Assembly (NCBI RefSeq): GCF_005239225.2 | Contig: NC_133295.1 | Coordinates: 682,001-746,000 of the forward strand | Direction of reading: 5' to 3' | DNA: 64,000 nucleotides | Source: Populus alba | Lineage: Eukaryota > Streptophyta > Magnoliopsida > Malpighiales > Salicaceae | Shown here: positions 1 to 38,779 of the stretch, in pieces | Layout: every line of letters starts with the position of its first letter | Position numbering within the stretch: position 1 is the first letter of the stretch | The notes under the pieces: generated by a model | Seen by the model: only the letters and a program-made list of their open reading frames with translations | Database searches by the model: none | Told to the model about the DNA's origin: nothing | Translations under genes and position numbers: made by a program

Positions 1-2561
1 CAGAAAATGGTTAGAAAACTGGTCAAGGAGTATAAAGATACAAAGATTGGATTTTTGACAGTATTTTCTTGAAGGATGAGAGCCCTATTGAGAAGGAAAT
101 TTTGAATTTTGAGGAGAAGCCCAAATTTGGATGTTTATGGACTTAATTGGATTTTATTTGAATTTGATTGCAAAGAAAAAATTGATTTTTAAGTCAATTT
201 GGGCTTTAATTAGAAGAAATTAAAGTTCTGGGGCCAAATTATGATTTTTAGGAATTTATTAAGTCAAATCAGGGGCTTAATTGCATAAATATTGAAGTTT
301 AAGGGCCAATTAGGGATTTAATTGAGAAAATCCGAAAACCAGGGACCAATTTGGAAAATGTGCCTTAATTTACTGTTCACTTTCTTCCTCAAAAACGCTG
401 CCTGAGTGGCTGCTTTCCAGGCGAGTTTTCCGGCTCGTGTGGCCTCCAAATCCGACAAACCTTACACCAACATGTTCACATGCAACCCTTTATCCCGGAG
501 AATGGTCCGGTCGGTCGAAAAAGTTAGAAACGGCTCCGTTGAGTGGCTCGAAGTGGCCACCTCGGGCAGTTCACAGCCTTGAGCTGCCAAATTTGGCAGC
601 TCGAGGTGCACACTTTGAGCCAACGATTGAGATGCTTCCCAGCTGAATCAAGGGCTGAAATTTTTCCCCAACGTATACAAGATTTCCCTCTTCCACTTCC
701 TATAAATAGAATCTCTTTTGAAGACCTAGGGGGGGAGAAAAGAACACACAAAGTCGGACGAAAATCAGCCATTACTGCCCAGTTTTCCTGCAACCAGCCT
801 CTTTTTCTCTTTCCCCCTCTCCGCCGTTGGCCCTCATCAACCACCACCATCATCACTCGTTTTCTCACCGACATCTCCACCTCAAGAAGCCACTAAAACG
901 TCACACACGGTGGTTGCATCATCTTCTCCCCAGACGTAGCAGCATCATTGAAGAAAAGGCAGCAACCCGCGCCTCTGCTGCGAGAAGAAGAAGAACAAAG
1001 CCATCACGCCAGCTACCACTATCTTCCTAGTCGACAACAACACAGTTGGGAGCAGAAGGAAAAAAGGGAAGCAGAGGAGAAACATAGCTGAAGAGGAACG
1101 CAGAGAAGAAAAGGAAGAAGGGCTGAACACCGCACTCCACAGTCACCGACCACCGTCCAAGTCACTCCCCGCCACCACTACCAGCGCCTCCACAAAGCTG
1201 CCATAGAGAGGGAAGAACATTGCTGACTGAGGGAAACCAAGAGAAGAAGCAACGCCTCTGTAAAGGGGAAGAAGAAGAGAAAACAGCTGCTGTCATCGAG
1301 CTTCCCAACCACTGCCACCGTCAGAACCATCGTGAGCCCCCATTGGCTTCCTGTCCACCGCCACCAGCATCACTGGGAGTGTTCGCCATCGTCTTCAAAC
1401 ATCATTTCTGCCACCAGGTTTGCACCCCCTTCGTCGCTGTGCATGCACCATTTCCTTGCATTTCACTGTTGAAGTGAAATATAATTCACTTGAACAGTGA
1501 AATGTTAATTCACTGTTCACATCACATATAATTCACGTGAACAGTGAAATGCTATTTCACTGTTCACATCATATATATTTCACTGTTCACATAAGGCCTG
1601 CTGGGTTCAGCCCAGCCATGTGGGCCCCGCTGGGTCCAGCCCTAAAAAAAAAAATAAAAAATAAAAATTCTTCAAAAAAAAAATTATTTCAAAGAATTTG
1701 TGATTTTTCCTGTAATTTTATTACTGTATTTTGGGTCAATACCGGTTTGTATTTTTTATATTGTAAAGATACAAATCCGGTATTAAAATACCCGGTTTTC
1801 ATAAAAAAAAATGTTTATTAAAAAATGTTTTGTTTTCATGCATACGGCCAATACACTAACATGTTTTGAATGTTCTTTTTATATATAAAAAAAAATATTG
1901 GAAGTTTTGAAAATGTGTTTTCGCATGGATTTCTTAAACACAAAATCATTTTCTTGCATTTGTGGATTTTACAACCTGTTTGTAAAACTCCAAAGGGTAT
2001 TGGCCAATATTACAAAAACTATAAAAATCTTATTTTGGGAGGAGAAGTTGTGGTTATTGTTCACCGCTAATGTTTGGATGAAGAAATCCTTAAAAGGACG
2101 AACATCCAAAATATTATCGGGAGTAATAAATCAACGCACATGTTTGAAAGAAGCTTTGGTTGCGATCGAGAACATTTCAAAATTTTAATTTTTTTTTTTC
2201 TCCACGGTTTACGAGTCACCGACTTTTGAAATACTAAAGGAAAAAACGAACTTTCATAGCACATGGAATTTCCTTAGGTTTCTATCTAAAATAAATTGAC
2301 GGGTTTAGAAGACACCAACACCATAGACTATGGAGCAAACCAAACACCAAGCAGCTTACCTTAGGTAGGGCGTATTAGGGGTGCTAGTACCTTCCCTTTA
2401 CGCAACCAGTCCCTTGCCTTAGAATCTCTGAAAGACCAGTTAGGGTTCCTAGTGACCAAATACTAGGTGGCGACTCCAAAGAACCAAATCCTTAGAACAC
2501 AACGAAAATCGCCAGCCGATGTCGTGCCTTTATTTTATAATTTTTTGTGGGGGGTGTGACA
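1..2561 (+). repeat. E1 5' LTR (partial, lacks first 87 bases)
   Basis: Direct repeat of 7768-10322 with few substitutions and several small indels, which suggests recent insertion. It contains a TATA box (701-708), a GC-richer stretch (about 530-1460), a cluster of palindromes built on TTCACTGTTCAC and GTGAACAGTGAA (about 1460-1592), AT-rich DNA (1640-2300) and a U5 end conserved with the other two Ogre-like elements of this window (about 2340-2561). Confidence 0.93.
701..708 (+). promoter_or_regulatory. TATA box in E1 5' LTR
   Basis: TATAAATA preceded by CCACTTCC. It is the most promoter-like site in the LTR and is conserved in the 3' LTR at 8467-8474. Transcription would be expected to start about 25-35 bases downstream, which would put the GC-rich block and the palindromes in the 5' leader of the element RNA. 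Confidence 0.6.
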
Positions 2562-2564: not shown

Positions 2565-2583
2565 TGGCGACTCCACTGGGGAC
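2565..2583 (+). other. E1 primer binding site (tRNA-Arg type)
   Basis: TGGCGACTCCACTGGGGAC lies three bases (GAA) after the LTR end. Its complement ends in CCA, as the 3' end of a tRNA should. Ogre elements are known to use tRNA-Arg and I infer the same here. The same site with the same GAA spacer occurs in E2 (38762-38779, minus) and E3 (52695-52712). Confidence 0.85.
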
Positions 2584-3859: not shown

Positions 3860-4735
3860 AATTGAAAAATGGCAAGTTCTACTAACTGAGTACAACATAG
3901 TATATATGACAAGAAAAGCCATGAATGTCATCGCCAATCACCTAGCTGACCATGTTGTGAAAGTTTATGGGCTGTTAAGATTTGATTTTTTGGATAAAAA
4001 TATGCTTTCAGTCGAGTAAGGGAAATCAGATTGTTGGATTATGTACTTTGAGGGTGTTGTGGTAATAGAGTGGGGGCAGTGCTAATCTTTCCTAATAAGA
4101 AACAGTATCCGGTTTTAGTTAAATCGCAATTTGGGTACGCTAACAACACAACTGAGTTTGAAGCTTGCATTCTCGATTTTAAAGGTTGCATTAGAGCTAA
4201 ACATCAGAAAGATAGATGTGTATTGGAGACTCGATTTTGATTATTTGTCAAGTGAAAGGAAAAGGGCAAACCAAGGACGAGAAGTTGAGACCTTGCCAAG
4301 AATACTTGTCTAAATGGGCTAGAGAATTTGAGGAAATAAAGTTCACCCATCTAGGAAGGGAAAGAAACCATTTTGATGTTTTGGTCACGCCAGCTTCTAT
4401 GGCTAGAATAGACTTTGGGCACAAGGTACAACCAATACACATTGATATAAGAAATAACTTAGCTCATTATTGCTCAGTTTGAAAGAGAAATTGATGGAAA
4501 CCCTTGGCACTATGATATCAAGAATTTCATCCAAAACTAGACATATCCCATGGGGGCATCCAAAAAGCAACAATAAGACGTTGAGGAGGTTAGCAATGGA
4601 TTTCTATCTTGATGGGGAAACTTTGTATAAATCATCTGACGAAACTTTGTTGAGATGTTTTGATCACGTGAAAAAAGTGGTGAAGAAATTTATGGAAAGA
4701 TATTTGATCTATCGATATGGTCCACTAGAAAAATA
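3860..4735 (+). pseudogene. E1 RNase H and pol linker remnants
   Basis: Broken frames encode the second, Ogre/Tat-type RNase H region: a block with NNTTEFEACI near 4140-4175, then QEYLSKWAREFEEIKFTHL and HFDVLVTPASMA at about 4298-4410. Downstream (4560-4735) comes the linker with MDFYLDGETLYK and a weak trace of the integrase zinc-finger region. There are several stops and frame changes (for example at 4314 and 4482). In functional members the RNase H cleaves the RNA of the RNA-DNA hybrid. Here it is decayed. Confidence 0.75.
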
Positions 4736-5345
4736 ATGCCCAGAATTTCAACGGCAAGATGATAATGGAGCTTTGCACTAAATGGAAAATCAAGCATTCC
4801 AATTCTTCGCCATATAGACCAAAGATGAATGGTGCGGTAGAAGCTGCTAACAAGAATGTCAAAAAGATGGTAGTCACCTATAAGGATTGGCATGAGATGT
4901 TGTCATGTATATCACACTACATTTAGAACCTTAATAGGAGCCACCCCGTACATGTTGGTATATGGAATGGAGGCGTTGATGCCTTTAGAAGTGGAACTCC
5001 CATCATTGAGAGTATTGATAGACTTTGAGCTAGAAGAGTTAGAATGGGAGAAGGTTAAATGTGAACGGTTGAATCTGATAAGTGAAAAGAGGATAGCCGT
5101 AATCTGTCATCATCAACTTTATCAAAGAAGGATGGCCAAATCATACAATAAGAGGATTCGACCTTGAGGGTTCCACGAAGGAGATCTTATATTGAAGAAA
5201 ATGTTGTCTTTTACCAGGAGAAGGTCAGAGTAAATGGACGCCAAACAATGAGGGCCCTTTAGTGGTAAAGAAAGCGTTTTTGGGAGAAGCTTTAATTGTT
5301 ATCTAGAATGGATGGAGAAGATCTATTTAGGCCCGTGAATTCTGA
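4736..5345 (+). pseudogene. E1 integrase remnant
   Basis: The PYRPKMNGAVEAANKN-like motif of gypsy integrases lies near 4808-4860 and carries the third catalytic acid (E) of the DDE triad. After it come ATPYMLVYGMEALMP (about 4940-4985) and a C-terminal stretch ending GFHEGDLILKKML near 5200. Stops are frequent (for example 5165-5167). The two upstream catalytic acids are not found, so the core domain is largely deleted. Confidence 0.8.
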
Positions 5346-6055: not shown

Positions 6056-6059
6056 AAAA

Positions 6060-6929
6060 GGAATCGCCAGATGGGATTCCAAGTTGTTTGAGATCGCCAG
6101 AAGTGATCTCATATTTTGATATTCATCAATGGAGGTCGCCAGAAGGGATCTCAAATTTCAGCTTTTGTTAAAAGGAATCGCCAGATGGGATTCCAAGTTG
6201 ATGGAGATCGCCAGAAGGGATCTCGCATTTCACTATTTGGAGGTCGCCAGATGGGACCTCATATTTCATGTTTGATAAAAGGGAATCGCCAGATGGGATT
6301 CCAAGTTGATGGAGATCGCCAGAAGGGATATCGCATTTCACTATTTGGAGGTCGCCAATGGGACCTCATATTTCATGTTTGAATAAAAGGAATTGCCAGA
6401 TGGGATTCCAAGTTGATGGAGATCGCCAGAAGGGATCTCGCATTTCACTATTTGGAGGTCGCCAGATGGGACCTCATATTTCAGCTTTGAATAAAAGGAA
6501 TCGCCAGAGGGGATTCCAAGTTGATGGAGATCGCCAGAAGGGATCTCATATTTCACTATTTTGGGGGTCGCCAGATGGGACCTTATATTCCATGTTTGTT
6601 AAAAGGAATCGCCAGATGGGATTCCAAGATGATTAAAGGAGATCGCCAGAAGGGATCTCATGTTTCACTATTTGGAGGTCGCCAGATGGGACCTCGTATT
6701 TCATGTTGGTTAAAAAAGGAATCACCAGATGGGATTCCAAGTTGGTTAAAGGAGATCGCCAGAAGGGATCTCATATTTCGATATTCATCCAAGGAGGTCG
6801 CCAGAAGGGACCTCATATTTCGGCTTTGAATAAAAGGAATCGCCAGATGGGATTTCAAGTTAAAGGAGATCGCCAGATGGGATCTCATTCTTCGACATTC
6901 ATCAAGGAAGGTCGCCAGAAGGGACCTCA
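6060..6929 (+). repeat. E1 tandem hairpin array, class I
   Basis: About 24 short inverted repeats in a row, each 21 bases: a 6-base arm, the loop GCCAGATGG or GCCAGAAGG, and the complementary arm. Three stems rotate in fixed order: GGAATC/GATTCC, GAGATC/GATCTC, GAGGTC/GACCTC, giving a higher-order unit of about 110-118 bases. Spacers such as aagttgatg, catttcactattt and atttcatgtttgataaaa separate them. Examples: arms 6060-6065 and 6075-6080; 6090-6095 and 6105-6110. Reading frames cross the array in both directions only because the unit has few stops. I do not take them as genes. Confidence 0.92.
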
Positions 6930-6974
6930 TATTGAAACCATTTCTTGGAAAAGCATTGGAGTTTACTAAGAATT

Positions 6975-7306
6975 CTTCCCCCTGGGTAGGTCACCCATAC
7001 AATGAGACCATTATTTTTCTGGGTAGGTCACCCATACAATGAGACCATTATTTTTCTTGGGTCGGTCACCCATACAATGAGACCATCATTTTTCTAGGGT
7101 TCGTCACCCGTACAATGAGACCAGCACTAGGGTTCGTCACCCGTACAATGAGACCAGCACTAGGGTTCGTCACCCATACAATGAGACCAGCATTATTCTT
7201 GGGTCGGTCACCCATACAATGAGACCAGCATTTTTCTTGGGTTTGTCACCCATACAATGAGACCAGCATTTTTTCTGGGTAGGTCACCCATACAATGAGA
7301 CCATTA
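6975..7306 (+). repeat. E1 tandem array, class II (GGTCACCCAT..GAGACC)
   Basis: About eight copies of a 36-50 base unit containing GGGTAGGTCACCCATACAAT then GAGACC. Each copy can fold in two exclusive ways: GGGT with ACCC (5-base loop) or GGTC with GACC (13-base loop). Variants GGGTCGGTCACCC and GGGTTCGTCACCC keep the GGGT/ACCC pairing. The same unit occurs in E2 (minus strand, 33708-33790) and E3 (58177-58712). Confidence 0.9.
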
Positions 7307-7333
7307 CGCATTTTTGTATTTGGTTGAGTAAAG

Positions 7334-7512
7334 GAATCGCCAGATGAGATTCCAAGTTGATTGAGATCGCTAGAAGGGATCTCGCATTTCGATATTGGTC
7401 AAAGGAGGTCGCCAGAAGGGACTTCATATTTTAGCCTTGGTTAAGAAGAATCGCCGGATGGGATTCCAAGTTTTTGGGGTTAAAGGAGATCGCCAGAAGG
7501 GATCTCGAGATG
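7334..7512 (+). repeat. E1 second block of class I hairpins
   Basis: Five more hairpins with the same loop and arms as 6060-6929, some with one changed arm base (for example GAGGTC with GACTTC). They lie after the class II array, so the two classes are interleaved. Confidence 0.85.
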
Positions 7513-7631: not shown

Positions 7632-7680
7632 CTTACTGCGCAAAACCTATGCTCCGTAAGCTTTATAAAGAGGGGGCATC
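7632..7680 (+). other. E1 polypurine tract with upstream stem-loop
   Basis: AAAGAGGGGGCATC at 7667-7680 directly abuts the 3' LTR and is the plus-strand primer site. Just before it CTTAC (7632-7636) pairs with GTAAG (7656-7660), with a further GCA/TGC pairing inside. The same arrangement is present at the same place in E2 and E3. Confidence 0.85.
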
Positions 7681-10322
7681 TGTTGTAACCCATTTTTGGG
7701 TCCCCACAAAAATAAATAAAATAAATAGCCAAAAGAGGCTAGAAAAATAACGGAAGGCAGAAGCACTCAGAAAATGGTTAGAAAACTGGTCAAGGAGTAT
7801 AAAGATACAAAGATTGGATTTTTGACAGTATTTTCTTGAAGGATGAGAGCCCTACTGAGAAGGAAATTTTGAATTTTGAGGAGAAGCCCAAATTTGGATG
7901 TTTATGGACTTAATTGGATTTTATTTGAATTTGATTGCAAGAAAAAATTGATTTTTAAGTCAATTTGGGCTTTAATTAGAAGAAATTAAAGTTCTGGGGC
8001 CAAATTATGATTTTTAGGAATTTATTAAGTCAAATCAGGGGCTTAATTGCATAAATATTGAAGTTTAAAGGCCAATTAGGGATTTAATTGACAAAATCCG
8101 AAACCAGGGACCAATTTGGAAAATGTGCCTTAATTTACTGTTCACTTTCTTCCTCAAAACGCTGCCTGAGTGGCTGCTTTCCAGGCGAGTTTTCCGGCTC
8201 GTGTGGCCTCCAAATCCGACAAACCTTACACCAACATGTTCACATGCAACCCCTTTATCCCGGAGAATGGTCCGGTCGGGTCGAAAAAGTTAGAAACGGC
8301 TCCGTTGAGTGGCTCGAAGTGGCCACCTCGGGCAGTTCACAGCCTTGAGCTGCCAAATTTGGCAGCTCGAGGTGCACACTTTGAGCCAACGATTGAGATG
8401 CTTCCCAGCTGAATCAAGGGCTGAAATTTTTCCCCAACGTATACAAGATTTCCCTCTTCCACTTCCTATAAATAGAATCTCTTTTGAAGACCTAGGGGGG
8501 GAGAAAAGAACACACAAAGTCGGACGAAAATCAGCCATTACTGCCCAGTTTTCCTGCAACCAGCCTCTTTTTCTCTTTCCCTCTCCGCCGTTGGCCCTCA
8601 TCAACCACCACCATCATCACTCGTTTTCTCACCGACATCTCCACCTCAAGAAGCCACTAAAACGTCACACACGGTGGTTGCATCATCTTCTCCCCAGACG
8701 TAGCAGCATCATTGAAGAAAAGGCAGCAACCCGCGCCTCTGCTGCGAGAAGAAGAAGAACAAAGCCATCACCGCCAGCTACCACTATCTTCCTAGTCGAC
8801 AACAACACAGTTGGGAGCAGAAGGAAAAAAGGGAAGCAGAGGAGAACATAGCTGAAGAGGAACGCAGAGAAGAAAAGGAAGAAGGGCTGAACACCGCACT
8901 CCACAGTCACCGACCACCGTCCAAGTCACTCCCCGGCCACCACTACCAGCGCCTCCACAAAGCTGCCATAGAGAGGGAAGAACATTGCTGACTGAGGGAA
9001 ACCAAGAGAAGAAGCAACGCCTCTGTAAAGGGGAAGAAGAAGAGAAAACAGCTGCTGTCATCGAGCTTCCCAACCACTGCCACCGTCAGAACCATCGTGA
9101 GCCCCCATTGGCTTCCTGTCCACCGCCACCAGCATCACTGGGAGTGTTCGCCATCGTCTTCAACATCATTTCTGCCACCAGGTTTGCACCCCCTTCGTCG
9201 CTGTGCATGCACCATTTCCTTGCATTTCACTGTTGAAGTGAAATATAATTCACTTGAACAGTGAAATGTTAATTCACTGTTCACATCACATATAATTCAC
9301 GTGAACAGTGAAATGCTATTTCACTGTTCACATCATATATATTTCACTGTTCACATAAGGCCTGCTGGGTTCAGCCCAGCCATGTGGGCCCCGCTGGGTC
9401 CAGCCCTAAAAAAAATAAAAAATAAAAATTCTTCAAAAAAAAATTATTTCAAAGAATTTGTGATTTTTCCTGTAATTTTATTACTGTATTTTGGGTCAAT
9501 ACCGGTTTGTATTTTTTATATTGTAAAGATACAAATCCGGTATTAAAATACCCGGTTTTCATAAAAAAAAAATGTTTATTAAAAAAATGTTTTGTTTTCA
9601 TGCATACGGCCAATACACTAACATGTTTTGAATGTTCTTTTTATATATAAAAAAAATATTGGAAGTTTTTGAAAATGTGTTTTCGCATGGATTTCTTAAA
9701 CACAAATCATTTTCTTGCATTTGTGGATTTTACAACCTGTTTGTAAAACTCCAAAGGGTATTGGCCAATATTCCAAAAAACTATAAAAATCTTATTTTGG
9801 GAGGAGAAGTTGTGGTTATTGTTCACCGCTAATGTTTGGATGAAGAAATCCTTAAAAGGACGAACATCCAAAATATTATCGGGAGTAATAAATCAACGCA
9901 CATGTTTGAAAGAAGCTTTGGTTGCGATCGAGAACATTTCAAAATTTTAATTTTTTTTTTCTCCACGGTTTACGAGTCACCGACTTTTGAAATACTAAAG
10001 GAAAAAACGAACTTTCATAGCACATGGAATTTCCTTAGGTTTCTATCTAAAATAAATTGACGGGTTTAGAAGACACCAACACCATAGACTATGGAGCAAA
10101 CCAAACACCAAGCAGCTTACCTTAGGTAGGGCGTATTAGGGGTGCTAGTACCTTCCCTTTACGCAACCAGTCCCTTGCCTTAGAATCTCTGAAAGACCAG
10201 TTAGGGTTCCTAGTGACCAAATACTAGGTGGCGACTCCAAAGAACCAAATCCTTAGAACACAACGAAAATCGCCAGCCGATGTCGTGCCTTTATTTTATA
10301 ATTTTTTGTGGGGGGTGTGACA
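7681..10322 (+). repeat. E1 3' LTR (complete, 2642 bases)
   Basis: Begins TGTTGTAACCC directly after the polypurine tract and ends GTGTGACA. It matches 1-2561. Open frames inside (for example 8309-8851) differ between the two LTR copies because of indels, so they are not conserved as protein. TATA box at 8467-8474. It runs into the CACTA transposase reading frame at 10323. Confidence 0.95.
8467..8474 (+). promoter_or_regulatory. TATA box in E1 3' LTR
   Basis: TATAAATA, identical in context to 701-708. A promoter in the 3' LTR could read out into the CACTA transposase frame that begins right behind it. That is inference. Confidence 0.5.
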
Positions 10323-10328
10323 CGGAGG

Positions 10329-13300
10329 ATGGATTATTGTAACGGGGTTCAGGGTTTTATTAATTTCGCAACATCTATTCCCAGAAATTTTACTGGAGGC
10401 GGTATTAGGTGTCCATGCAGAAAGTGTCAAAATAAAAAGTATATGCATCCAGATGTTGTAATGATGCATCTTCTACACAAAGGGTTTGTGGAGGATTACG
10501 AGTGTTGGTATGCACATGGAGAGGTATTTGTTAGTAATAGGAGAATGGGAGAAACGGTGGTTGGGTCAACTTCTAGTGCTAGCAACGTGTATGAAGCGGC
10601 AAATGACAACACTAATCCTTACAGAAACATGGTTATGGATGCAATGGGAATGAATCAAGATAATGTCAATCAATGTCCAATCGTAGAAGAAGAACTTAAT
10701 GCAGAGGCAGCTAGGTTTTTTGATTTGTTGAAAGATTCTGACGAACCATTATGGGATGGCTGCACAAACCACGGTAAATTATCGGCTGTGGCACAGGTGT
10801 TCACCATCAAGTCAGATCACGGGTTGAGTGAGGCCGGGTATGACAAAATTATTGATTGGGCAAGAAGCATTTTACCAGAAGGGAACAGGCTCAAAGAGAA
10901 CTTCTATGCTGCGAAGTCCATGATGAAACCCCTCGGTTTAGGATACCAGAAAATTGACATATGCCCTAACTTCTGCATGTTATACTACCTTGAAAATGCT
11001 GTGATGACCGAGTGCATGACATGCGGGCATTCCCGTTACAAACCCAGAACTGGCAGGGGGAAGACTCTAGTGGCATATAAAAAACTTAGATATTTCCCGA
11101 TCACACCAAGACTGCAGAGGTTATTTATGTCACCAAGGACTGCTGAGCACATGACATGGCACCAAACACACGATGTCGTTGATGGTGTGATGGTGCATCC
11201 TTTTGACGGCGAAGCGTGGAAACGCTTTAACAGTGTTCATCCGGACTTTTCTGCTGAATCAAGGAATGTTCGACTTGGGTTGTGTACAGACGGGTTCAAC
11301 CCATTTGGGTCATTTGCTGCTCCCTATTCTTGTTGGCCGGTCATTCTCACAGTTTATAACTTGCCACCGGGAATGTGTATGAGGCCAGAGTTCATGTTTC
11401 TATCTACTGTCATACCCGGTCCAAGCAGCCCGGGGCGGAATATAGATGTTTGTCTTCGACCGTTGATAGATGAGCTGGCGCAGTTGTGGTCCTCCAGATC
11501 TCTGACTTATGATATATCGAGGAAACAAAATTTCCTTATGAGGGAGGCTTTGATGTGGACTATCAGTGATTTTCTAGCTTATGGAATGCTTTCTGGTTGG
11601 AGCACGCATGGGAAACTCGCATGTCCATACTGCATGGAAAACAACAAGGCATTCACGCTAGCAAACGGAGGTAAAGCTTCTTTTTTTGACTGTCACCGTC
11701 GCTTCTTGCCACTCAATCACAGGTTCAGAAAAAACAGAAAAGATTTCTTTGTTGGAAGAGTTGAAAAAGATGTTGCATCCCCGCGTCTTTCTGGTGAAGA
11801 ATTGCATCATGTTGTATCAGAGTACGGTGACATTGTGTTTGGCCTTCAATCAGGTAAGCAAAAGTTTCCTGGTTTTGGTTTGACCCATAATTGGGTAAAG
11901 CGAAGTATCTTTTGGGAGCTTCCGTATTGGAAGACTAATCTTCTCCGACATAACCTTGACGTCATGCACATCGAAAAGAACGTGTTTGAGAATATTTTCA
12001 ACACCATCATGGATGTGAAGGGGAAGACAAAGGACAACATGAAGGCTAGATTGGATATAGCTTTATACTGTAACCGTAAAAATATGGAGTTGGTTTATGA
12101 CGAGTCACGGGTTGCAAAACCAAGGGCAAGCTTCGTGTTAGAGAAAAACGCACAACTGCTAGTCTATAAATGGCTTAAGAGTCTGCGTTTCCCGGATGGA
12201 CATGCATCGAACATATCAAAGCTTGTTAACATAGAGGACTGCAGATTGTATGGAATGAAGAGCCATGACTGCCACGTGTTTATGCAAACACTCATCCCAT
12301 TAGCTTTTCGTGATTTGTTGCCAAAGGGAATATGGGATGCACTAACGGAGATCAGTCATTTCTTCAGAGATATATGCTCCAGCAAGATGAATGTTGAGCA
12401 CATTGAGATGCTTCAAACGAATATCATCGAGACACTATGCAAACTTGAGATGATATTCCCTCCTTCATTTTTTGACTCAATGGAGCATCTCCCTATACAT
12501 CTACCGTTCGAGGCAAAAGCTGGAGGACCGGTCCAGTATAGATGGATGTACCCATTCGAACAGTGAGATATTACAGTTGCAATGGGATTCATATCTTAAA
12601 GTATTTTCTATGTTTTTCTTATTTGAAAATACTTCAATTGTACTTCAATGCAGGTACTTGTTTAATCTAAAAAAAAAGGTTAAGAACAAGGCGCATGTTG
12701 AGGCTTCGATATCTGAGGCCTATATTGTTGAAGAGATATCAACATTTATCTCGAACTATTTCGAACCTCATCTGAGAACAAGAATCAATCGCGTTCCACG
12801 GCATGACGATGGCGGTGAAGTGCCTTCTAGTGGGAACTTGTCAATATTCTCCAATACTGGACGACCCACACCTAAAAATGCCGTAAGAGGAAGATATTTG
12901 TCGGAAATAGAATTCAAACAAGCACACAACTATGTTCTATTTAACTGTGATGAGCTGAGACCATTTATTCAGTAAGTCTATATATGTGTAATAGTAATTA
13001 AACTTTGTCAGTAATATACTGTTAATTATATATTGTAATATCATACACTCATTATCACTTGCAGGCAACATCGACAATATTTGCTCTCCAATAACTCGCA
13101 GCTGACCGAATCCCAGATCTTTCAATTACAAGATGAACAATTTGCCACATGGTTCAGAACACATGTAAGCACTATCACAAACTCATTCTAACGTATGCAT
13201 GTCATTACGAGATTCTCGTTCATTTACCGTGTATTGATGTACATTTAATTACACAAGGTTTATCAAATAGGAAGGAGTGCGCCCAAGTCATTGTCTTCAC

Positions 13301-14030
13301 TAAGCCTCGGCCCTGAAAGAAAAGTTAGGTGCTACAACGGGTATTTTGTCAATGGATATGTTTTCCATACTGAAGAATACGGGCAAGGAAGAAAGACATA
13401 CAACTGCGGTGTTTGTGTTAAGGGATCCACAAGTAGCCAGTTAGAAGTTGACTACTATGGTAGATTAGAAGAGGTCGTCAAACTGCAATATCATAGCGAG
13501 CAGAATAAAGTGTTTTTATTCAAATGCTATTGGTATGACACGACGGACAGAGGAATCAGAGTTGATCCGCACCATGGTCTGGTCGAAATCAACTCAAAAG
13601 CTAGACTCCGCAACATAAACGATGTCTTTGTTTTCGCAAAGCAATGTCAACAAGTTTATTACACATACACCCCTTCATTTAGAAAGGATCGTTCAAGAGT
13701 TGATTGGTTGTCCGTTTTAAAAACAAAACCACGGGCCGTGTCGAGGTTGTTCAGGATGAGAACGAAGACACAAGTGTGCGAGATGAAGTCTTTCAAGTTC
13801 GTGAGTTGGTTGAACCATATCGAGTTGCTCCTTCGATTGAATTGGAAGAAAATTCAAATTTTCGAGTTCTCGATTATAGTCTTGTTGATATTGATGGAGC
13901 GGAGTTGAATGTTGTTCTCAGCTCTAGCGGACAAGCAAATGTCGATGAAGAAGATGATATCCATATTGAAGATTGCGATGAAGATGATGACAATTCAATT
14001 GACGAGGAAGAAGAAGAAAATTCCGACTAA
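10329..14030 (+). pseudogene. CACTA TNPD-like transposase (Transposase_21), 5' truncated and frameshifted
   Basis: Catalytic transposase of the CACTA element, which binds and cuts the ends. Visible exons: 10323-12562, 12654-12971, 13065-13164, 13258-14030, with GT-AG introns (donor gaaca|gtgaga, acceptor tgcag|gtac; attca|gtaagt, ttgcag|gcaac; acacat|gtaagc, cacaag|gttta). Domains in order: transposase-associated N domain with the CPC-x2-C motif (residues about 10-75), Transposase_21 (DGFNPFG, NLPPGMCMRPEFMFL, WSTHGKLACPYCM), DUF4218-like (LPLAFRDLLP-like, FFDSMEHLPIHLP) and DUF4216-like (YFVNGYVFHT, GIRVDPHHGLVEI, VYYTYTP). The first codons are lost to the E1 insertion. A one-base loss near 13730 shifts the frame; the acidic tail ending EEEEENSD is only read in the new frame. 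The ATG at 10329 is the first possible start within the CACTA part. Confidence 0.9.
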
Positions 14031-14224: not shown

Positions 14225-14850
14225 ATTACCGACGGATAGTGATCTGTCGGTATCTCATAGAGAGTTCGAAATTAATTACGCGAAATGCCACCACCACCGA
14301 TGACATTACCGACAGCTTCACCGACACATACACCGACGGATTCTAGTCCGTCGGTATATCACAGAGAGTTCGAAAATATTTACAACAAAATGCCACAATC
14401 ACCGACGTCCATACCGACGGATTCTAGTCCGTCGGTATCTCACAGAGAGTTCAAAAATATTTACAACAAAATGCCACAATCACCGACGTCCATACCGACG
14501 GATTCTAGTCCGTCGGTATCTCACAGAGAGTTCGAAAATATTTACGCGAAATGCCACCAACACCGAATTACCGACGGAGTAGGTCCGTCGGTAATTTGTC
14601 GGTTACACATATTACCGACAGAATTACCGACGGACCGCGCGTTTTCCAAAGTGCGTTAATTACGCCTCTGAACTTGTCAGATTACCGACGGAATCACCGA
14701 CGGACTGCGAAAAATTTGGAGGGCTTTTAAAAATTCGGAGTGAAATTCAAAAAATACCGACGGAATTTTGACCTTTTGCCGACGGAATTTTGCCCTGTTA
14801 CCGACGGAGGTTAAGTCCGTTGGTGATTCCGTCGGTAAAATTGACCTATA
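14225..14850 (+). repeat. CACTA internal block of CCGTCGGT palindromes
   Basis: A block dense in ACCGACGG and CCGTCGGT. Four tandem units of about 81 bases each carry the palindrome ACCGACGGA..TCCGTCGGT around TTCTAG, followed by TCACAGAGAGTTCGAAAATA and ACAAAATGCCACAATC. Such motifs near the ends of CACTA elements are binding sites for TNPA-type proteins. Here they lie between the two genes, just upstream of the TNPA-like gene, so they may serve as its promoter region. No CACTA terminus is found here. Confidence 0.85.
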
Positions 14851-15109
14851 AGTTCCAGCCCCGTCGCTTCGCCTCATTTTTTCTTCTTCTCTCCGCCGCT
14901 TCGCTTCTCCTTCGTTTTTCACCTTAGATTTTTCATTTTTTTCACCTCAATCCTTAAACACTTTCACCTTTAATCTCTAGCAAGATTTGGTGTTGTAAAT
15001 CTTCATTATATTAAAAGGTATGTGTTTTTTTTCTAATTTATTTTATTTTATTTTATTTTTAGTTGTTTTTATTTTTGTTGTGTTGGTGTTTTTTGTTGCA
15101 ATGTAGATA

Positions 15110-15860
15110 AAGTTTTGAATTTGACACATTATTAAGGTATGTTATATTTCGTTCCTTTTTTTTTTTGAAATTTTTTGAATATTTTTTGAATTTGTTGAAT
15201 ATTTGTGAATTTAATTGTTGAATAATTGAATTTAATTGTTGAATTTATTGAATATTTTTTGTTGTTGTGTTGTTAGAATTGTTATTAGTTAATTTAACTT
15301 AGAATTAGTTAAAGTTGAATATTTGAATATTTTTTTGAAATATTTTTTGAATTTTGTTGAATATTTGTGAATTTAATTGTTGAATTTATTGAATATTTTT
15401 TGTTGTTGTGTTGTTGGAATTGTTATTAGTTAATTTAACTTAGAATTAGTTAAAGTTGAATATTTGAATATTTTTTGAATTTGTTGAATATTTGTGAATT
15501 TAATTGTTGAATAATTGAATTTAATTGTTGAATTTATTGAATATTTTTTGTTGTTGTGTTGTTAGAATTGTTATTAGTTAATTTAACTTAGAATTAGTTA
15601 AAGTTGAATATTTGAATATTTTTTGAAATTTTTTGAATATTTGTTAATTTAATTGTTGAATAATTGAATTTAATTGTTGAATTTATTGAATATTTTTTTT
15701 TTGTTGTGTTGTTTAGAATTGTTATTAGTTATTTAACTTAGAATTAGTTAAAGTTGAATATTTGAATTTTTTTGAATTTGTTGAATTATAATTGTTAATG
15801 TTGAATTGTAATGATTAATTTGTTGAATTATAATTTGTTGAATTTATTGATATATTTTTT
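15110..15860 (+). repeat. AT-rich tandem repeat in CACTA interior, about 145 bp x 4
   Basis: The motif GTTGTTGTGTTGTTAGAATT followed by gttattagttaatttaac returns at about 15261, 15402, 15550 and 15700, separated by TTGAATATTTTTTGAA-rich filler. It lies in what looks like the 5' untranslated or intronic part of the TNPA-like gene. No coding potential. Confidence 0.8.
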
Positions 15861-16153
15861 TGTCATATTTTTTATTGTTTTGAATTTATTGAATTGTAAG
15901 GATTAATAGTTGAATATGTTGGAATAATTAGTATAGATTGGTTCGATTGGTTTGTGGCTATTGTTAATATTTGCAGGTTTGTGGATTTGGGTAGTATCCA
16001 ATATAGGGGAGGTGCTGCCGATTTTTTTTTTAACTTTTGAATTTTATTATACAATTATTAATATAAAATTGTTTAGATACGCAAATGAAAAACCAGAGTT
16101 GGTCGTCTAGTCGAATCAAGTTCGTCTAGCAGCGATGATGATGTTTTCCTTAG

Positions 16154-17803
16154 GTGCCTCTCAAGAAGAGGCACCTACACCACCTGCGCCGTCAACCGAT
16201 GCTGCCTCTTCCAGCGATGTTTCACATCGCAGACGCGGCATGCCTTCGAAGCGGAATCAATTTACCCGCCAGTTCGAGGCACAGTGGAAGGACGATCTTT
16301 TAATGTAAAGTTTGTTAATGTTTTTAGTTTTTTTTATATAAAAAAAAAAATTTAAAACATAATTTATTGAAGTAATCACAAATTAATTTCATTTCTTTTC
16401 AGGTTCACAAACATTGAGGCCACCCGATTAATATCATCGGCGTTTAAAGCATCGATGGAGATTCCATTGTTTCAATGGAGTTAGATATCCAGACATCCTG
16501 AATGGATGCCTCAAATCAATGCATGGTTTCGTAGTTTTGAGGTTCGTGTTAATATATAATTTCCAGCTTATTTCTAATAAATTCAAGTTATAATTGTAAA
16601 TAATTTATTAACATTTTAAAAGATTATTTTTTTATATACAGCATCGATTCTGCTGGGACGATGAACATGACAGTGTTGTGAGGAGGGTGTGGGAAAATCA
16701 CGCGGCAATTAGGTAACATCGAAAACAATACGACTTTTTTTTACATAATTATTTATGTTTTGAAATGTAATTTTTTCGTACGTGAATTAGGTTGCGTGAT
16801 TTTTGGTATGACGCCCAGAAAAAAGCAAAAAAAACAGCGAGGGATAAGGGGTTACAAGGCTGGAACGATATTGCGGTTTGGAGGGATTTCAAACCAATAT
16901 ACATCCCGGAAGATATATGGCCGCACTATCTTCAGCACGTGACGTCTGAGCGGTTCACTCGACGCTCACAGTCCGGTGCCGGCAACCGGAATAGGCAAAT
17001 TCATGGCTCGGTTACAACGCACACCGGCGGCTCTGTTCTGTTTGCTGCACATGCGAAACGGATGGTAAGATTAATTTAAATGAAATATATCGTTCAATTA
17101 ATTTGTTGTTAATACATTTGTTTCATTATATATAGGCTACGTCTCTTGGACGTGAGCCGAGCCCTATGGAGCTGTTTGTGGAGACGCACGTGCGGAGTCA
17201 TGACCGCCAAAAGGGGACGCAACAGTTCGTTGACAACCGTGCTCAACAGTTTGTGGTGTGTTTGTTCAACCATTTTATTTTATAAGTTATTATCATGTTT
17301 ATTGAATTGAATATGATTTTTTTTTTTCAGGAGACCTATAATAATCGGTTGAGGGAGAGATACGGGGATGATCCTTCGACCCATCCGGAATTCGATCCGG
17401 ATTTGTGGATGGAGGCTGGATCGTCAGGTGGACCCGATAAAAATCGGGTTTACGGGCTCTCCAACACTACCGCTGCCAAGTTGCGGTCGACCGGTACTGC
17501 TTCAACCGTGGGAGCTCCCAATCTGTATCGAGCTCCCAATCTAAGGATTTTTTTTGTGGCCTTGTAAGCAAAGGTGCGACCACCTTATCAAGGCGTACAC
17601 ACAACTCAAAGAAGAGCAAAGATTGGCGAACGAACAACACAGGATTGGCGGACGAACAACGCAGAGCAGAGTCTGAACAACAAAGAGCGGCCTATGAAGA
17701 GCTTCGTCAAATGGTCATGAACATGACACAAGGTGGAACATGTGCGCCTAATCCTTTTTGGCCGCCTAACCCCCACCCTCCTCCTCCTCCACCTTTATAT
17801 TAA
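16154..17803 (+). pseudogene. CACTA TNPA-like gene (Transposase_24 family)
   Basis: Second CACTA gene, of the plant Ptta/En/Spm Transposase_24 family, thought to bind the subterminal repeats. Likely exons with GT-AG borders: about 16154-16304, 16403-16541, 16642-16712, 16791-17064, 17136-17255, 17331-17803. Landmarks: QFTRQFEAQW-like, WFRSFE, HRFCWDDEHD, LRDFWYDAQKKA, GGSVLFAAHAKRM, LGREPSPMELFVETHVRS, NRLRERYGDD, DPDLWMEAGSSGGPDKNRVY. The C-terminal part is Gln/Glu-rich (likely coiled coil) and ends in a proline run and LY. Lesions: an in-frame TAG at about 16483 in exon 2, and an early stop near 17565 in one frame while the C-terminal part is open in another. The first exon is uncertain. 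Confidence 0.8.
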
Positions 17804-17959
17804 TTGTTTTTTTTTTTTAAACACATTCATTTTGTAATGAATATTATTTAAAACTTTGAGTTTCTGTTGCTTAATATAAATTTTATTTTGCATAATTGGT
17901 TTGTTATTACTATTAATTTATATTATTTTTTCTAAATAATTAAAAAAAAAAAAATTACA

Positions 17960-18411
17960 CAGGGATTTACCGACGGAAAAAAATCCGTCGGCATTGGACA
18001 GTGTCTGCGGTATTTCATCCCATCACCGACGGAAATAATCCGTCGGTATAAAAAATACCGACGAATTTACAGACGGATTTATTCGGTCGGTATGAAATAT
18101 CACCGACACTTTTGCCGACGGATATAGTCCGTCGGTATTTACATAACACCGACGGAAAATATTTCGTCGATATATTCCAAGGGGGAAACTTTTTTTTTTT
18201 GGCGCGCACGGTCCGTCGGTAAAACCGGTCGTAAATGTTTTTTTTGTATTACCGAAGACCGATATAGCGACGGGAATGTGGAATCACCGACAAAAGGTAT
18301 TCCGACGGGCGTATTCCGTCGGTAATATAGTCGGTAAATACTTTACCGACGAACGTTCTATCACACACCGACGGAATATTTCCGTCGGTAAAACTGTGAA
18401 ATCTTGTAGTG
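17960..18411 (+). repeat. CACTA 3' subterminal repeats and terminal inverted repeat
   Basis: About a dozen copies of ACCGACGGA or TCCGTCGGT in both orientations, ending in CAGTTT-type terminal sequence: the reverse complement starts CACTACAAGATTTCACAG. The last base of the element is taken as 18411. The three bases after it (TAA) would be one half of the expected 3-bp target duplication, the other half being outside the window. Confidence 0.9.
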
Positions 18412-22051: not shown

Positions 22052-22170
22052 ATATACATGCATGAGGACTGATGAGTCAGCCTGTCCTATATACATACAT
22101 GCATGAGGACTGATGAGTCAGCCTGTCCTATATACATACATGCATGAGGACTGATGAGTCAGCCTGTCCC
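22052..22170 (+). repeat. 41-bp tandem repeat x 3 with RY and GCN4-like motifs
   Basis: Unit with ATACATGCATGAGGACTGATGAGTCAGCC-type sequence; GAGGACTGATGAGTC starts at 22064, 22105 and 22146. Each unit holds CATGCATG (RY/Sph-like), TGAGTCA (GCN4/bZIP-like) and the small palindrome GACT..AGTC. It lies about 0.9 kb upstream of the RLP. A regulatory role is possible but not shown. Confidence 0.75.
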
Positions 22171-30631: not shown

Positions 30632-31867
30632 ATGGCATCCGAGAATAGCTTTGTGCAACCTGCTATTCCACGATTTGATGGTCATTACGACCATTGGAGT
30701 ATGCTCATGGAGAATTTTCTCCGCTCCAAAGAATATTGGAGCTTGATAGAAACGGGAATTACTGTTGCAGCAGAAGACAAAGACCTACGGGAGAAGACCA
30801 TTGATGAGCTCACATTGAAGGACCTCAAAGCAAAAAACTACCTCTTCCAGGCTATTGATCGATCAATACTGGAGACTATTTTGAAGAAGGATACTGCAAA
30901 GGACATATGGGATTCTTTGAAGAGAAAGTATCAAGGCACATCTCGGGTGAAAAGAGCTCAATTGCAGGCACTTCGCAAAGAATTTGAAGTGCTGCACATG
31001 AAGATTGGAGAATCAGTGGATGATTATTTCTCCCGAACTCTCATTATAGCCAACAAAATGAGAATTCATGGGGGAAAAATGGAAGATGTAATTATCATTG
31101 AAAAAATTCTATGATCTATGACTCCTAAGTATGATTATGTAGTATGCTCCATTGAGGAGTCTAATGATCTAGATGCTTTGTCAATTGATGAACTTCAAAG
31201 CTCTCTTCTGGTGCACGAACAGAGGATCAGTTGAAGCATTGTGGAGGAACAAGCCCTGCAAGTGAGTCACGGGCTACATCAAGGAGGAAGAAATGGTGGA
31301 CGAAACAGTTACCGTGGGAGAGGAAGAGGCAGAGGATGATTTGAAGGAGGAAGAATTGAAGGCAGATTTGACAAATCTGCCATAGAATGCTACCACTGTC
31401 ATGACCTTGGTCATTTTCAGTGGGAGTGTCCTAAGAGAACTCACGATCACATGGCTAAATATGCAGAAACAAAGGAAGAGATGCTATTGATGGCACTTGT
31501 AGATCATGAAGAGATCAACACTGAGCACACTTGGTATCTTGACAATGGGTGTAGCAATCATATATGTGGAGACAAAACATTGTTTTCTGAGCTAGACAAT
31601 AGCTTCACAGAATCAGTAAAACTGGGAAACAACTCCAAGCTTGGAGTACAGGGCAAGGGAAGGATTCGGTTTGAGGTAAGAGGCATTGTTTTTGTGATTC
31701 CAGAAGTCTTTTATGTGCCAGATTTAAAGAACAATTTTCTGAGTCTTGGTCAATTGCAAGAAAAGGGCATGACAGTGTTGATTAAGCATGTCAAATGTAA
31801 AATCTTTCATGCTTCCAAAGGCTTAATCATCGAAAGCAAGATAACACAAAACATGATGTTTTGTGTC
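30632..31867 (+). pseudogene. copia gag-protease part of the polyprotein (left of E2)
   Basis: Gag starts at MASENSFVQPAIPRFDGHYD (ATG 30632; the in-frame ATG at 30578 is in the leader). UBN2-like gag with KNYLFQAIDRSIL and IWDSLKRKYQG, a zinc knuckle CYHCHDLGHFQWEC (CX2CX4HX4C) near 31388-31430, then a protease with WYLDNGCSNHICG where D-S-G is usual, so the active-site serine is changed to asparagine. In-frame TGA stops stand at 31112-31114, 31232-31234 and 31337-31339. All three fall where related elements have arginine, as CGA to TGA changes would give. The frame runs to 31867, the exact edge of the E2 insertion. Confidence 0.93.
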
Positions 31868-33494
31868 TGTCGCACGTGTGCGGCGGCGCGGCGATCGTCC
31901 ACCCCAACCCTTCGTGAGGGTGTGGTATGTTGTCTATTTGGCATGGAAAATATGGTGAGACAAGGAGTTCTTTGTCTCTAAGCTAAAAATGGACTGGGAG
32001 TCGCCACCTAGTATTCTGGTTACTAGGAACCCTAACTGGTCTCAGAGATGGGGTACGGAGACTGGTTGCGTAAAGGGAAGGTATTAGCACCCCAACTACG
32101 CCCTACCTAAGGTAAGCTGCATTGTTTTGTCTGATAAAATCTAAGATCGTGTTGTGGTTTCTTATTGTTTGGAATATGCATTACATGTAATGTCATACCC
32201 CAGGTTCTATTGTCCAAAAAAACAAAAAAAGAATTAAATATCCAGAATATGCATTACGTGTAATGTCATACCCCGAATACTAAGAGACAAACAAAATAAA
32301 ATTTTTGTTGTTTTTGAAATTTTGGCCAATATTCTCTTGACTTTAATAAACTGGTTATTAAAGCCAAAATATATGCTAAAACATGGTTTTTTTTGGTGTA
32401 TGAAAAATACAATATGATTTTTTAGCTTTGAGACACTTGGCCGTATGCACAAAAACATTTTTTTTCTTTTTCCAATTTTTTTGTATTTTTGGAAGTTTTT
32501 TTTTTTGACAAAAACCGGGTATTTTAATATCAGATTTTTGTATTTTTAATAACATAAAATACCACCCAATATTAATCAAAATGACATAAAAATTACACGG
32601 AAAAATTATAAAATGCTGAAAAAAAATGTTTTTATTTTTTTTTTTTTTTTTTTGAAATGGGTCGGGTCAGGCCCAAATACATGGGTTGGGCCGAACCTGG
32701 CCCAAATGCATGGGCTGGTTACTGTGCACATAGTAACCGGGTTACTGTGTGCACAGTAACCAGAGAATTAATTAGCATGTATAGTAACCGATTAGCTAGT
32801 TACTGTGCACAGCACAGTAACTAGCTAATTAATCTTCATCTGCTGCAGAACGTAAACGTTCTGCATGCAGATGAAGCCGAAGCCGAAGCAAAAAAAATGA
32901 CAGTGGAGAAAGTTACCTGGAACGGTGTTGATGCTGGCAGCAGCTGATGCGGCAGGGGTGGCGGTGGCAGTGCTGGTGGTTCGCGGTGGCCGGCGGTTTT
33001 CCTTCTCTCTCTCTCCTCTGTTTTTTCTGTTTTCTTCTCTGCTTCTTCCTTTCTCTTCTCTGCCTTCTCTCCTCTCTTCTCTCGGTCTTCCCCCTCTCTT
33101 CTCCCTTATGTTCCCTCTTCTGTTCCCTCTCTCTCCGTCTTCTCCTCTTTTCCCTCTCTCGGGTCTCCTCTCCTCTATTTATAGAGCCCGTGAGCATGTT
33201 TTTTTCATTGTGGAGCCAAGGAACGGGTCATGCGGCGGCTGGTCGGGCGCGGCTGTCCAGGCGTGCCTACCTCAGTTTCGGCGGTGCGGTAGGTGGTTGG
33301 CCAATGTCTTCGGTCGGTGGGCTTGAGGGACCGGCGTCATTAAATATGCATTCTTTTTCCTTCTTTGCTGCTGTGTGTTCGGCGGGGAAGAAAGGGGAAC
33401 AGTGCCGTTCAAAACGGCACTGTTTTGAGCTTTCTTTGATTTTTTTTTTTGTATTTATTATTTTTTTATGGGGACCCAAAAATGGGTTACAACA
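31868..33494 (-). repeat. E2 3' LTR (1627 bp)
   Basis: Near-identical to 38783-40463 but about 54 bases shorter because that copy has extra duplicated segments (near 39700-39740 and 40255-40300). On the minus strand it starts TGTTGTAACCC and ends GTGCGACA. It has a TATA box at 33176-33183 and a palindrome cluster (GTTACTGTGTGCACAGTAAC) at about 32720-32835. The arginine-rich minus-strand frame at 32913-33197 is low-complexity GA-rich DNA, not a gene. Confidence 0.95.
33176..33183 (-). promoter_or_regulatory. TATA box in E2 3' LTR
   Basis: TATAAATA on the minus strand; same site in the other LTR at 40120-40127. Confidence 0.5.
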
Positions 33495-33545
33495 GTTGCC
33501 CCCCTCTTTACAATGCTTACGGAGCAAAGATTTGTGCATAGTAAG
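33495..33545 (-). other. E2 polypurine tract and conserved stem-loop
   Basis: Minus strand reads TAAAGAGGGGGGCAAC next to the 3' LTR (33495-33510). Before it lies a stem CTTAC/GTAAG (33541-33545 with 33516-33520) with inner GCA/TGC pairing, as in E1 and E3. Confidence 0.85.
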
Positions 33546-33707
33546 TGTTGTAAAGAAAAAATAACATTGGTCTTCCGAAACTGGTCGTCTCAAAATTTGA
33601 TTGACCTAAAACTTCAACCGGACCCAAAGTCCTGTGTATGGTTGGGCTAAACTGAGATTCCTTTCACCAATCCCCTTTAACCCGAAAAAAAAGGAAACAA
33701 TGTGAAG

Positions 33708-33790
33708 TGTGGTCTCATTGTAATGGGTGACCTACCCAGATATAAAACATGGAGAATTGGTCGCATTGTAATGGGTGACCTACCTAGAAA
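33708..33790 (-). repeat. E2 class II hairpin units, two copies
   Basis: On the minus strand: TAGGTCACCCATTACAATG followed by GAGACC or GCGACC, twice. The same unit as in E1 6975-7306 and E3 58177-58712. Confidence 0.85.
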
Positions 33791-33796
33791 AATGTT

Positions 33797-34727
33797 GGTG
33801 AGGGCTCAAAGGCGCACTCAAAAGGAGGTAGGGTTACAAAACGCTCTACCTGACTGGTGGTGGCTCAAAGGCACACTTGGAATGAGTTGAGGGCTCAAAG
33901 GCACACTTAAAAGGAGGTAGGGTTAGAAAATGCACTACCAAAGGGATGAGGGCTCAAAGGCGCACTCAAAAGGAGGTAGGGTTAGAAAACGCACTACCAA
34001 AGGGATGAGGGCTCAAAGGCGCACTCAAAATGGAGGTGAGGGCTCGCAGACGCACTCAAAAGGAGGTAGGGTTAGAAAACGCACTACCTAAGGGATGAGG
34101 GCTCAAAGGCGCACTCAATAATAGAGGTAAGGGCTCAAAGGCGCACTCAAAAGGAGGTAGGGTTAGAAAACGCACTACCAAAGGGATGAGGGCTCAAAGG
34201 CGCACTCAAAATGGAGGTGAGGGCTCAAAGGCGCACTCAAAAGGAGGTAGGGTTAGAAAACGCACTACCTAAGGGATGAGGGCTCAAAGGCGCACTTAAT
34301 AATGGAGGTGAGGGCTCAAAGGCGCACTCAAACGGAGGTAGGGTTAGAAAACGCACTACCAAAGGGATGAGGGCTCAAAGGCGCACTCAAACGGAGGTGA
34401 GGGCTCAAAGGCGCACTCAAACGGAGGTAGGGTTAGAAAACGCACTACCAAAGGGATGAGGGCTCAAAGGCGCACTCAAAATGGAGGTGAGGGCTCAAAG
34501 GCGCACTCAAAAGGAGGTAGGGTTAGAAAACGCACTACCGGGATGAGGGCTCAAAGGCGCACTCAAAATGGAGGTGAGGGCTCAAAGGCGCACTCAAAAG
34601 GAGGTAGGGTTAGAAAACGCACTACCGAAGGGATGAGGGCTCAAAGGCGCACTCAAAATGGAGGTGAGGGCTCAAAGGCGCACTCAAAAGGAGGTAGGGT
34701 TAGAAAACGCATTACCGAAGAGATGAT
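33797..34727 (-). repeat. E2 tandem hairpin array, about 90-bp unit
   Basis: About ten units. Each has one or two copies of an arm pair TGAG/CTCA around GGCTCAAAGGCGCA and one copy of GGTAG/CTACC around GGTTAGAAAACGCA (given on +). Both loops have 14 bases and share GG at the start and CGCA at the end, while the arms differ but still pair. The array sits at the same place as the E1 and E3 arrays, between the coding part and the polypurine tract. Frames that cross it (for example 34456-34740) are by-products. Confidence 0.9.
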
Positions 34728-34740
34728 GTTGAAACAATGA

Positions 34741-38085: not shown

Positions 38086-38399
38086 GTTTCTCGCTCGAAG
38101 TCGGGTGTTGTAGACTTTTTGGGGACCTATATTTCAATCTGTCATGTATGCATGTTAAATGTATGAACATGTAATATATATGATGAACTTGCCCTTCGAG
38201 GGGTGACAAATGATTGTAATTGTTGCATAACGAAACAAGAAGCTTGATTCTTGCCCAAACTCTACAATGAAAATTTTTGGAGTGACGATCATGAGTTCAA
38301 AATGCTTCAGGAAGGGTTTTCTCGTATGCAAATAACGACAACACTACAAACAAGGACAGGTTTTATTATGTGAACATGGGTAGGTTGGCTATTCAGTCT

Positions 38400-38600
38400 C
38401 TAAAAAAAGGGTCTCTTGCTGTCCCAGTGATCACCCTCGTGGAGGCAATATGGGGGCTTGTAGGTAATGAGATGGCACGTGTACCAACTGTTACCAGTCT
38501 AAGCACTCAGTGAAGAGTTGGGGTTTACACAAACTTAAACCTTGACTAAAAGTCGTAAGGTAAGCTGCTAGTCCCCCACTTAACTTAAAGTGTTTCAGTA
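38400..38600 (-). other. E2 leader block conserved with E1 and E3
   Basis: Minus-strand sequence with GGGGGACTAGCAGCTTACC and the GAGGGTGATCACTGGGACAG-type part, also present in the leaders of E1 (2755-2960) and E3 (52870-53000). Confidence 0.75.
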
Positions 38601-38761
38601 CAAACTATCATATGAATGATGCATGACACAATCTATAATGCATGAACAAATATGTACAAATTTAAAGCATATGAGCAAATAACTAAGGGAAATTCATCTT
38701 AAAAATAAAACACAATAAATCCAAAGAAAAAACTAAACAAAACAATGCTTAGTCCACAAGG

Positions 38762-38779
38762 TCCCCAGTGGAGTCGCCA
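38762..38779 (-). other. E2 primer binding site (tRNA-Arg type)
   Basis: Minus strand TGGCGACTCCACTGGGGA, three bases (GAA) from the LTR end, as in E1 and E3. Confidence 0.88.

Follow-up and report, generated by a model that had tools for sequence, protein, structure and literature searches.

The window, i.e., the whole 64,000-nucleotide stretch of Populus alba contig NC_133295.1 analysed here (positions 682,001–746,000, forward strand), harbours three LTR elements, E1 (plus strand), E2 (minus strand) and E3 (plus strand), which have a common primer binding site core and a similar polypurine tract. The LTRs of E2 (31866–33496 and 38781–40465) and of E3 (49399–52691, interrupted, and 60557–62719) are 96% identical within each element, and a Retrotrans_gag frame is present in E2. 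The coding pieces of E1 are degenerate although its LTRs are 99% identical, and no sense frame of at least 200 aa was found in this element. Integrase-like frames of E1 at 4458–5167 were recognised by eye and gave no Pfam match. The arrays consist of hairpins, designated H1, H2 and H3, and of pseudoknot-like (PK) units.

1–2561, plus strand: 5′ LTR of E1, beginning before the window and 99% identical to 7768–10322
2565–2583, plus strand: primer binding site of E1, TGGCGACTCCACTGGGGAC; its first 17 letters are also found in E2 and E3
4216–4482, plus strand: RNase H-like piece of E1 (Pfam RVT_3, E 1.7e-5, above the curated cut-off), upstream of the arrays
6060–6928, plus strand: H1 array of E1, part 1; 24 hairpins in eight A-B-C rounds, loop GCCAGAWGG
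6983–7303, plus strand: PK array of E1; 9 units with S1 GGGT/ACCC, 1-nt L1, S2 GGTC/GACC and L3 of about 9 nt
7333–7506, plus strand: H1 array of E1, part 2; 5 hairpins, A B C A B
H1 arm types of E1, plus strand: A, GGAATC/GATTCC; B, GAGATC/GATCTC; C, GAGGTC/GACCTC
7666–7685, plus strand: polypurine tract and 3′ LTR start of E1 (TAAAGAGGGGGCATCTGTTG)
7681–10322, plus strand: 3′ LTR of E1, its left end deduced from the TGTTG that follows the polypurine tract
33700–33790, minus strand: two PK units of E2, found by eye, one fully Watson-Crick
33799–34726, minus strand: H3 array of E2, GGTAG-TGCGTTTTCTAACC-CTACC and TGAG-TGCGCCTTTGAGCC-CTCA
58180–58695, plus strand: PK array of E3, S1 TGGGT/ACCCA, S2 GGTC/GACC
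58735–59990, plus strand: H1/H2 hairpin array of E3, GGGATC-GGCGAAGG-GATCTC and relatives
60009–60460, plus strand: second PK array of E3, S1 altered on both sides (GGGC/GCCC)

The primer binding site TGGCGACTCCACTGGGGAC presumably matches tRNA-Arg, and we take the RVT_3 piece to be the aRH kind of RNase H. Two LTRs, a primer binding site, a polypurine tract and tandem repeats between pol and the 3′ LTR are the Tat traits found. A second RNase H (aRH, between RH and INT) is unique to Tat according to passages of PMC6317226; since an RVT_3 RNase H piece is present in E1, this element appears to be Tat-like. E2 and E3 would follow it in this assignment via their common ends and repeats, not via domains of their own.

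The E1 interval 6060–7512 contains 29 hairpins, with a 9-nt loop in 28 of them and an 8-nt loop in one (at 6348). The constant loop and the three arm types in fixed A-B-C rotation, claimed in the original prediction, are borne out by this count. The rotation runs through eight A-B-C rounds (starts at 6060–6908) and then A-B-C-A-B at 7333–7486. The interval had been described as a single array; hairpins do occupy both of its ends, but the nine PK units at 6983–7303 split them. In a single H1 unit, the fold comprises a stem of 6 bp, then a bulged G and two C-G pairs (CC/GG), closed by an AGAA or AGAU tetraloop. Changes of one arm alone are often G-T in the sense strand, as had been noticed: G-U pairs were found in E1 at 6132, 6389, 6564 (two), 6836 and 7405. 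Single-arm A-C changes in E1 are confined to the outermost pair (6908 and 7447), and the only plain mismatch is at 6312.

Six-bp hairpins number 22 in 6056–6933, against 5.7 ± 2.1 in dinucleotide shuffles, and 4 in 7330–7512, against 1.2; in neither case did any of 100 shuffles reach the observed count. The E3 H1/H2 array is enriched as well (27 against 8.7, 0/100). The H3 and PK arrays, with their shorter stems or longer loops, fall outside this six-bp definition and accordingly show no enrichment. The shuffle test likewise revealed no hairpin enrichment in pol, in the LTR or in three other minisatellites of the window, the last being weak controls with only 0.0–1.7 hairpins expected. Folding energy in sliding windows was rejected as support, being weak and not sense-specific in E1: the z-scores in 100-nt windows are modest, −1.7 for the sense and a lower −2.6 for the antisense strand. 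Of 195 distinct units compared one by one, 121 have the more stable fold in the sense strand and 56 in the antisense strand. A search of Rfam gave no match above the gathering score; the array produced only a chance-level snoRNA match (E 0.66).

When at most 2 mismatches are allowed, the 416-Mb genome contains the polypurine-tract motif GTAAGCNTTRTAAAGAGGGGG 1434 times and its control 0 times. The first 40 of 100 listed tract sites were sampled with 3.3 kb around each. All 40 of these 3′ regions contain at least three modules (H1, H2, H3 or PK) in the sense orientation, with PK units in 37 and some hairpin kind in 38; the same rules applied to the antisense strand and to the reversed letters gave 0/40 each. 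Module order, unit mix and array length vary between elements. The full survey comprised 66 stretches (40 + 4 tract sites, 17 array sites chosen by H1 match, two further loci and the three window elements), all except the window elements from a single contig, C1. Some of them are near-copies (L072/L074, 97% identical; L073/L076, 97% over 1151 bases), so the loci are not fully independent. In total, 788 H1 units with a constant loop and varying arms were collected from 62 of the 66 stretches, 405 remaining after the register filter and 788 after loci were added; 281 loop matches with no near-known arm, 44 out of register and 6 at an edge were excluded before the count. Related arrays are also present in E2 and E3.

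The PK units combine two overlapping helices in H-type order, as in TGGGT-A-GGTC-ACCCA-TACAATGA-GACC. In E1, 5/9 units are fully Watson-Crick in both 4-bp helices. An exact compact-pseudoknot scan of the whole window, whose shape (4 + 4 Watson-Crick pairs) was derived from the PK units themselves, gave 16 matches on the plus strand and 1 on the minus strand, and 16 of the 17 lie in sense orientation within the arrays; shuffled arrays gave 0.00–0.03 matches. Among 485 units, the inner S1 pair is T-A in 307, C-G in 77, C-A in 43 and T-G in 41. S2 reads GGTC/GACC in 303 of 539 units and is changed on both sides in three locus groups, GGTT/AACC (L062; L072/L074/L075) and GGTA/TACC (L077). Uncompensated S2 changes comprise one family with CGTC opposite GACC (90/539 units) and several other cases. 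Arm sequence (S1 GGG and a GTC[AG]CC core) was among the criteria by which the units were selected, which biases these pairing rates upward. The PK units are likely to fold as H-type pseudoknots. The unit had 0 matches in IMG/VR. In L041, L042, L055 and L077, a further hairpin lies between PK units (TGCGAG/CTCGCA and TGCGAT/ATCGCA; in L077, CGCGAAA/TTTCGCG); both arms seem to change, and mismatched forms such as TGCGAG/ATCGCA occur too. An 11-bp inverted repeat, TTCTTAGAAAA...TTTTCTAAGAA, adjoins the PK motif in L072 (1522–2253), L074 (1518–2256) and L075 (1816–2481).

Covariation was assessed on the first 43 stretches with our own R-scape-like script, which combines a FastTree tree, Fitch reconstruction, re-placement of the substitutions along the branches and an APC-corrected G-test. 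Of 595 column pairs in H1, two from the stem come out 1st and 3rd (E 0.83 and 5.2). With the shared origin of the units corrected for in this way, no pair is significant (best H1 E = 0.83), and in its strict form this is the outcome that the original prediction had named as counting against covarying stems. The wider claim of covarying stems that tolerate G-U stands in part: the 788 units, the kept pairing and the H1 G-U bias described below agree with it, but the strict covariation test does not. Under a tree-preserving null, pairing in H1 is 0.950 against 0.644 ± 0.122 (0/400) and in H3 0.930 against 0.635 (0/400); the upward-biased PK values are 0.888 against 0.646 for S1 (0/400) and 0.890 against 0.667 for S2 (1/400). 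The G-U share is unexceptional under this null, being reached by 69/400 replicates for H1 and 41/400 for its inner five pairs, and so is the number of pair types changed on both sides (86 of 400 for H1, 44 for H3, 136 for PK S1 and 341 for PK S2). In this null, changes are distributed according to branch length, starting from an inferred root, and its exact P values should not be relied on.

When a Watson-Crick pair undergoes one transition, the result is either G-U or A-C, and G-U is preferred only under a constraint on the sense RNA. In a tree of 422 distinct H1 units, with the CpG pair excluded, the inner branches carry 18.7 G-U, 3.6 A-C, 5.4 other breaks and 3.0 paired doubles, and the terminal branches 17, 12, 18 and 0, respectively. 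Changes on terminal branches mostly represent decay after insertion. The unpaired flanks show 47 G-U-type against 59 A-C-type transitions on inner branches, from which the inner H1 stems differ with a one-sided Fisher P = 0.0007, computed with 19 and 4 as the rounded counts. Kept and broken pairs stand at 22 to 9 on inner and 17 to 32 on terminal branches (one-sided P = 0.0015). By haplotype, the shared changes are 7 G-U, 1 A-C and 1 other and the private ones 7, 6 and 7 (one-sided P = 0.04; requiring three loci for a shared change gives 0.05). The excess at H1 pair 1 (shared 9 G-U, 0 A-C) was set aside post hoc, its C being in CpG. The outermost H1 pair, counted apart, has 4 G-U, 2 A-C and 2 other shared changes; its shared A-C changes include AAGGTC/GACCTC, found in 30 units in 19 loci.

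In 14 matched comparisons across arm types A, B, C and D, G-U was found in 113 units and A-C in 6, with 7/14 and 1/14 kinds, respectively, present in at least two loci; 78 of the 113 G-U units belong to two haplotypes and perhaps go back to few events. The 11 comparisons of arms A, B and C account for all 113 G-U units (7/11 kinds in at least two loci), against 3 A-C units, none in two loci; the three comparisons of type D gave 0 G-U and 3 A-C units in 3 loci. Over the whole genome, type A pair 3 is G-U 76 times on 14 contigs and A-C 0 times. For pair 4 of type B, the genome contains 8 A-C cases; among the 788 units, G-U was seen once and A-C not at all. The H3 and PK units show no G-U bias, and the terminal branches of PK S1 favour A-C, 22 to 11. 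A strand bias of mutation is not supported as the cause of the G-U excess: the flanks have 14 + 20 C>T and 31 + 33 G>A changes (inner + terminal), and three LTR pairs have 28 C/T and 22 A/G differences. As single changes in H1 give G-U rather than A-C, the bias points to selection at the level of the sense RNA.

Hypervariable tandem repeats in the 3′ regions of Tat/Ogre elements were reportedly described by Macas in 2009. Such repeats, termed hypervariable, seed satellite DNA. Their presence between pol and the 3′ LTR of Tat/Ogre/Retand elements is well known, as passages of PMC11963269 (Vicient 2025), PMC7004042 (Vondrak 2019) and PMC3305785 attest; in passages of the first and the last of these, the function is called unknown. 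The present arrays are alike in clade, place, mixture of repeat families and similar unit lengths, and the soybean Gmr9/GmOgre minisatellites, for example, have units of 26–105 bp (PMC3305785). The terms ‘hairpin’ and ‘secondary structure’ have 0 occurrences in the main texts of these three papers. No description of a conserved RNA fold in Tat arrays was found in the titles and abstract openings of the top-ranked matches in the open-licence literature. The nearest repeated hairpins in plant LTR elements encountered here are the palindromes of Sireviruses, which are alike in their many copies, constant core and occurrence in a plant LTR element (extracts of PMC2829016; Bousios 2016 as cited). 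According to the same extracts, they differ in belonging to Ty1/copia, in their position, which is within the LTR close to the TATA box and for some at the ENV gene, in the DNA-level role proposed for them and in a CGG-CCG core conserved in most, whereas the present arrays have another core and lie outside the LTR. The original prediction missed both the pseudoknot-like array within its own interval of E1 and the families of modules carried by other elements.

In the MS2 coat-protein operator, a 5′ single-base bulge lies two bp below a tetraloop, the loop is constant and the stem is flexible. H1 has the same layout of bulge, two pairs and tetraloop; the operator differs in its phage origin, bulged A and other loop, and no homology is implied. 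The RNA transport elements known from simple retroviruses and from IAP/MusD (CTE, RTE, MTE) are likewise structured RNA; to our knowledge, they do not form tandem arrays of tens of units. Passages of PMC11379458 place the CTE region of SERV-K/MER11 between env and the polypurine tract, and passages of PMC12786077 report a pseudoknot in the MusD transport element (MTE). The upstream pseudoknot domain of tobamoviruses resembles the probable pseudoknots of the PK arrays in that several such folds lie within a 3′ untranslated region; it differs in being viral, with few units and a different sequence.

From the modules, their location, the kept pairing and the G-U bias in H1, we infer with a probability of about 0.5 that the region from pol to the polypurine tract is a mosaic of cis-acting RNA modules (H1–H3 hairpins and probably PK units), the pairing of which is selected and which are bound by protein for packaging or export. 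The arms would drift while selection on the RNA keeps them paired, and the loop would stay constant. A loop-reading protein is proposed because the constant loop sits on interchangeable stems, and the shape of H1 would suit a putative repeated protein-binding site. Gag or a host factor might bind the many copies and thereby help the full-length RNA to be packaged or to leave the nucleus. The arrays adjoin the tract and persist in E1, where coding is degenerate and the LTRs are 99% identical, which suggests a cis role in the transcript. If the modules are selected, they would provide a testable cis-acting signal in plant LTR elements, explain why copies with degenerate coding retain the arrays and offer a way to compare 3′ regions with little common sequence. 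A tentative generalisation, for which we would claim less, is that Tat elements replicate by means of an expandable modular RNA code. Tens of hairpin and pseudoknot cassettes, exchangeable for one another, would precede the polypurine tract, their arms free to vary and their loops read by Gag or a host protein, and the 3′ regions would be conserved in fold and not in sequence.

The arrays could instead be a by-product, with no function, of slippage or template switching in reverse transcription, strand switching in imperfect palindromes repairing one arm from its partner and so producing double changes that are complementary. The differences in unit mix and array length between elements, the lack of a G-U bias in H3 and PK and the non-significant strict covariation test all fit this account. 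Repair of one arm from the other, however, predicts Watson-Crick pairs, not lasting G-U, and H1 inherits G-U more than A-C; in addition, three other minisatellites of the window show no hairpin excess, albeit as a weak control. On balance, an origin as mere by-product seems rather unlikely.

Still less probable is a role as DNA-level palindromes to which a transcription factor or a chromatin protein would bind. Such a role has been put forward for Sirevirus LTRs, whose palindromic repeats have a suggested cis-regulatory function (passages of PMC2829016 and PMC10760457). Half-sites should then be conserved, yet it is the arms that vary and the non-palindromic loop that is constant; selection on DNA gives no ground for G-U over A-C, and the arrays are found outside the LTR, in the segment from pol to the polypurine tract. 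The same RNA modules might also raise RNA stability or translation, in the manner of the TMV upstream pseudoknot domain, which acts in replication and translation (PMC4683447), and the PK units do repeat a compact H-type layout within a 3′ region. This is improbable given that 3/40 3′ regions have no PK unit by pattern and that E1 has no sense frame of at least 200 aa to benefit. The mosaic of protein-bound RNA modules remains our preferred reading.

Several other features of the window and the surveyed loci were observed. A 41-bp unit at 22054–22169, present in 2.8 identical copies, contains CTGATGAG, presumably a hammerhead-core-like string; Rfam gave no matching family for this repeat. The LTRs of E2 (32717–32761 and 39635–39745) and E1 (1460–1592 and 9224–9356) bear short tandem palindromes, GGTTACTGTGCACACAGTAACC and TTCACTGTTCA with TGAACAGTGAA, reminiscent of those in Sirevirus LTRs. 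Beside the 3′ LTR of E1, transposon frames which we take to be TNP2-like CACTA occupy 10302–13908 and 14332–18153, with repeats ACCGACGGA...TCCGTCGGT further on. L076 (1–2564) and L073 (2138–2565) share 83–87% identity with the CACTA-like segment of the window at 11258–13848, and this similarity reaches the PK array of a Tat 3′ region; the layout is as if the internal part had been replaced and the arrays and polypurine tract retained, and a truncated insertion would look alike. At 31340–42916, E2 apparently sits as an insertion, oppositely oriented, within a Ty1/copia-like element with frames on both sides, recognised as copia by eye.
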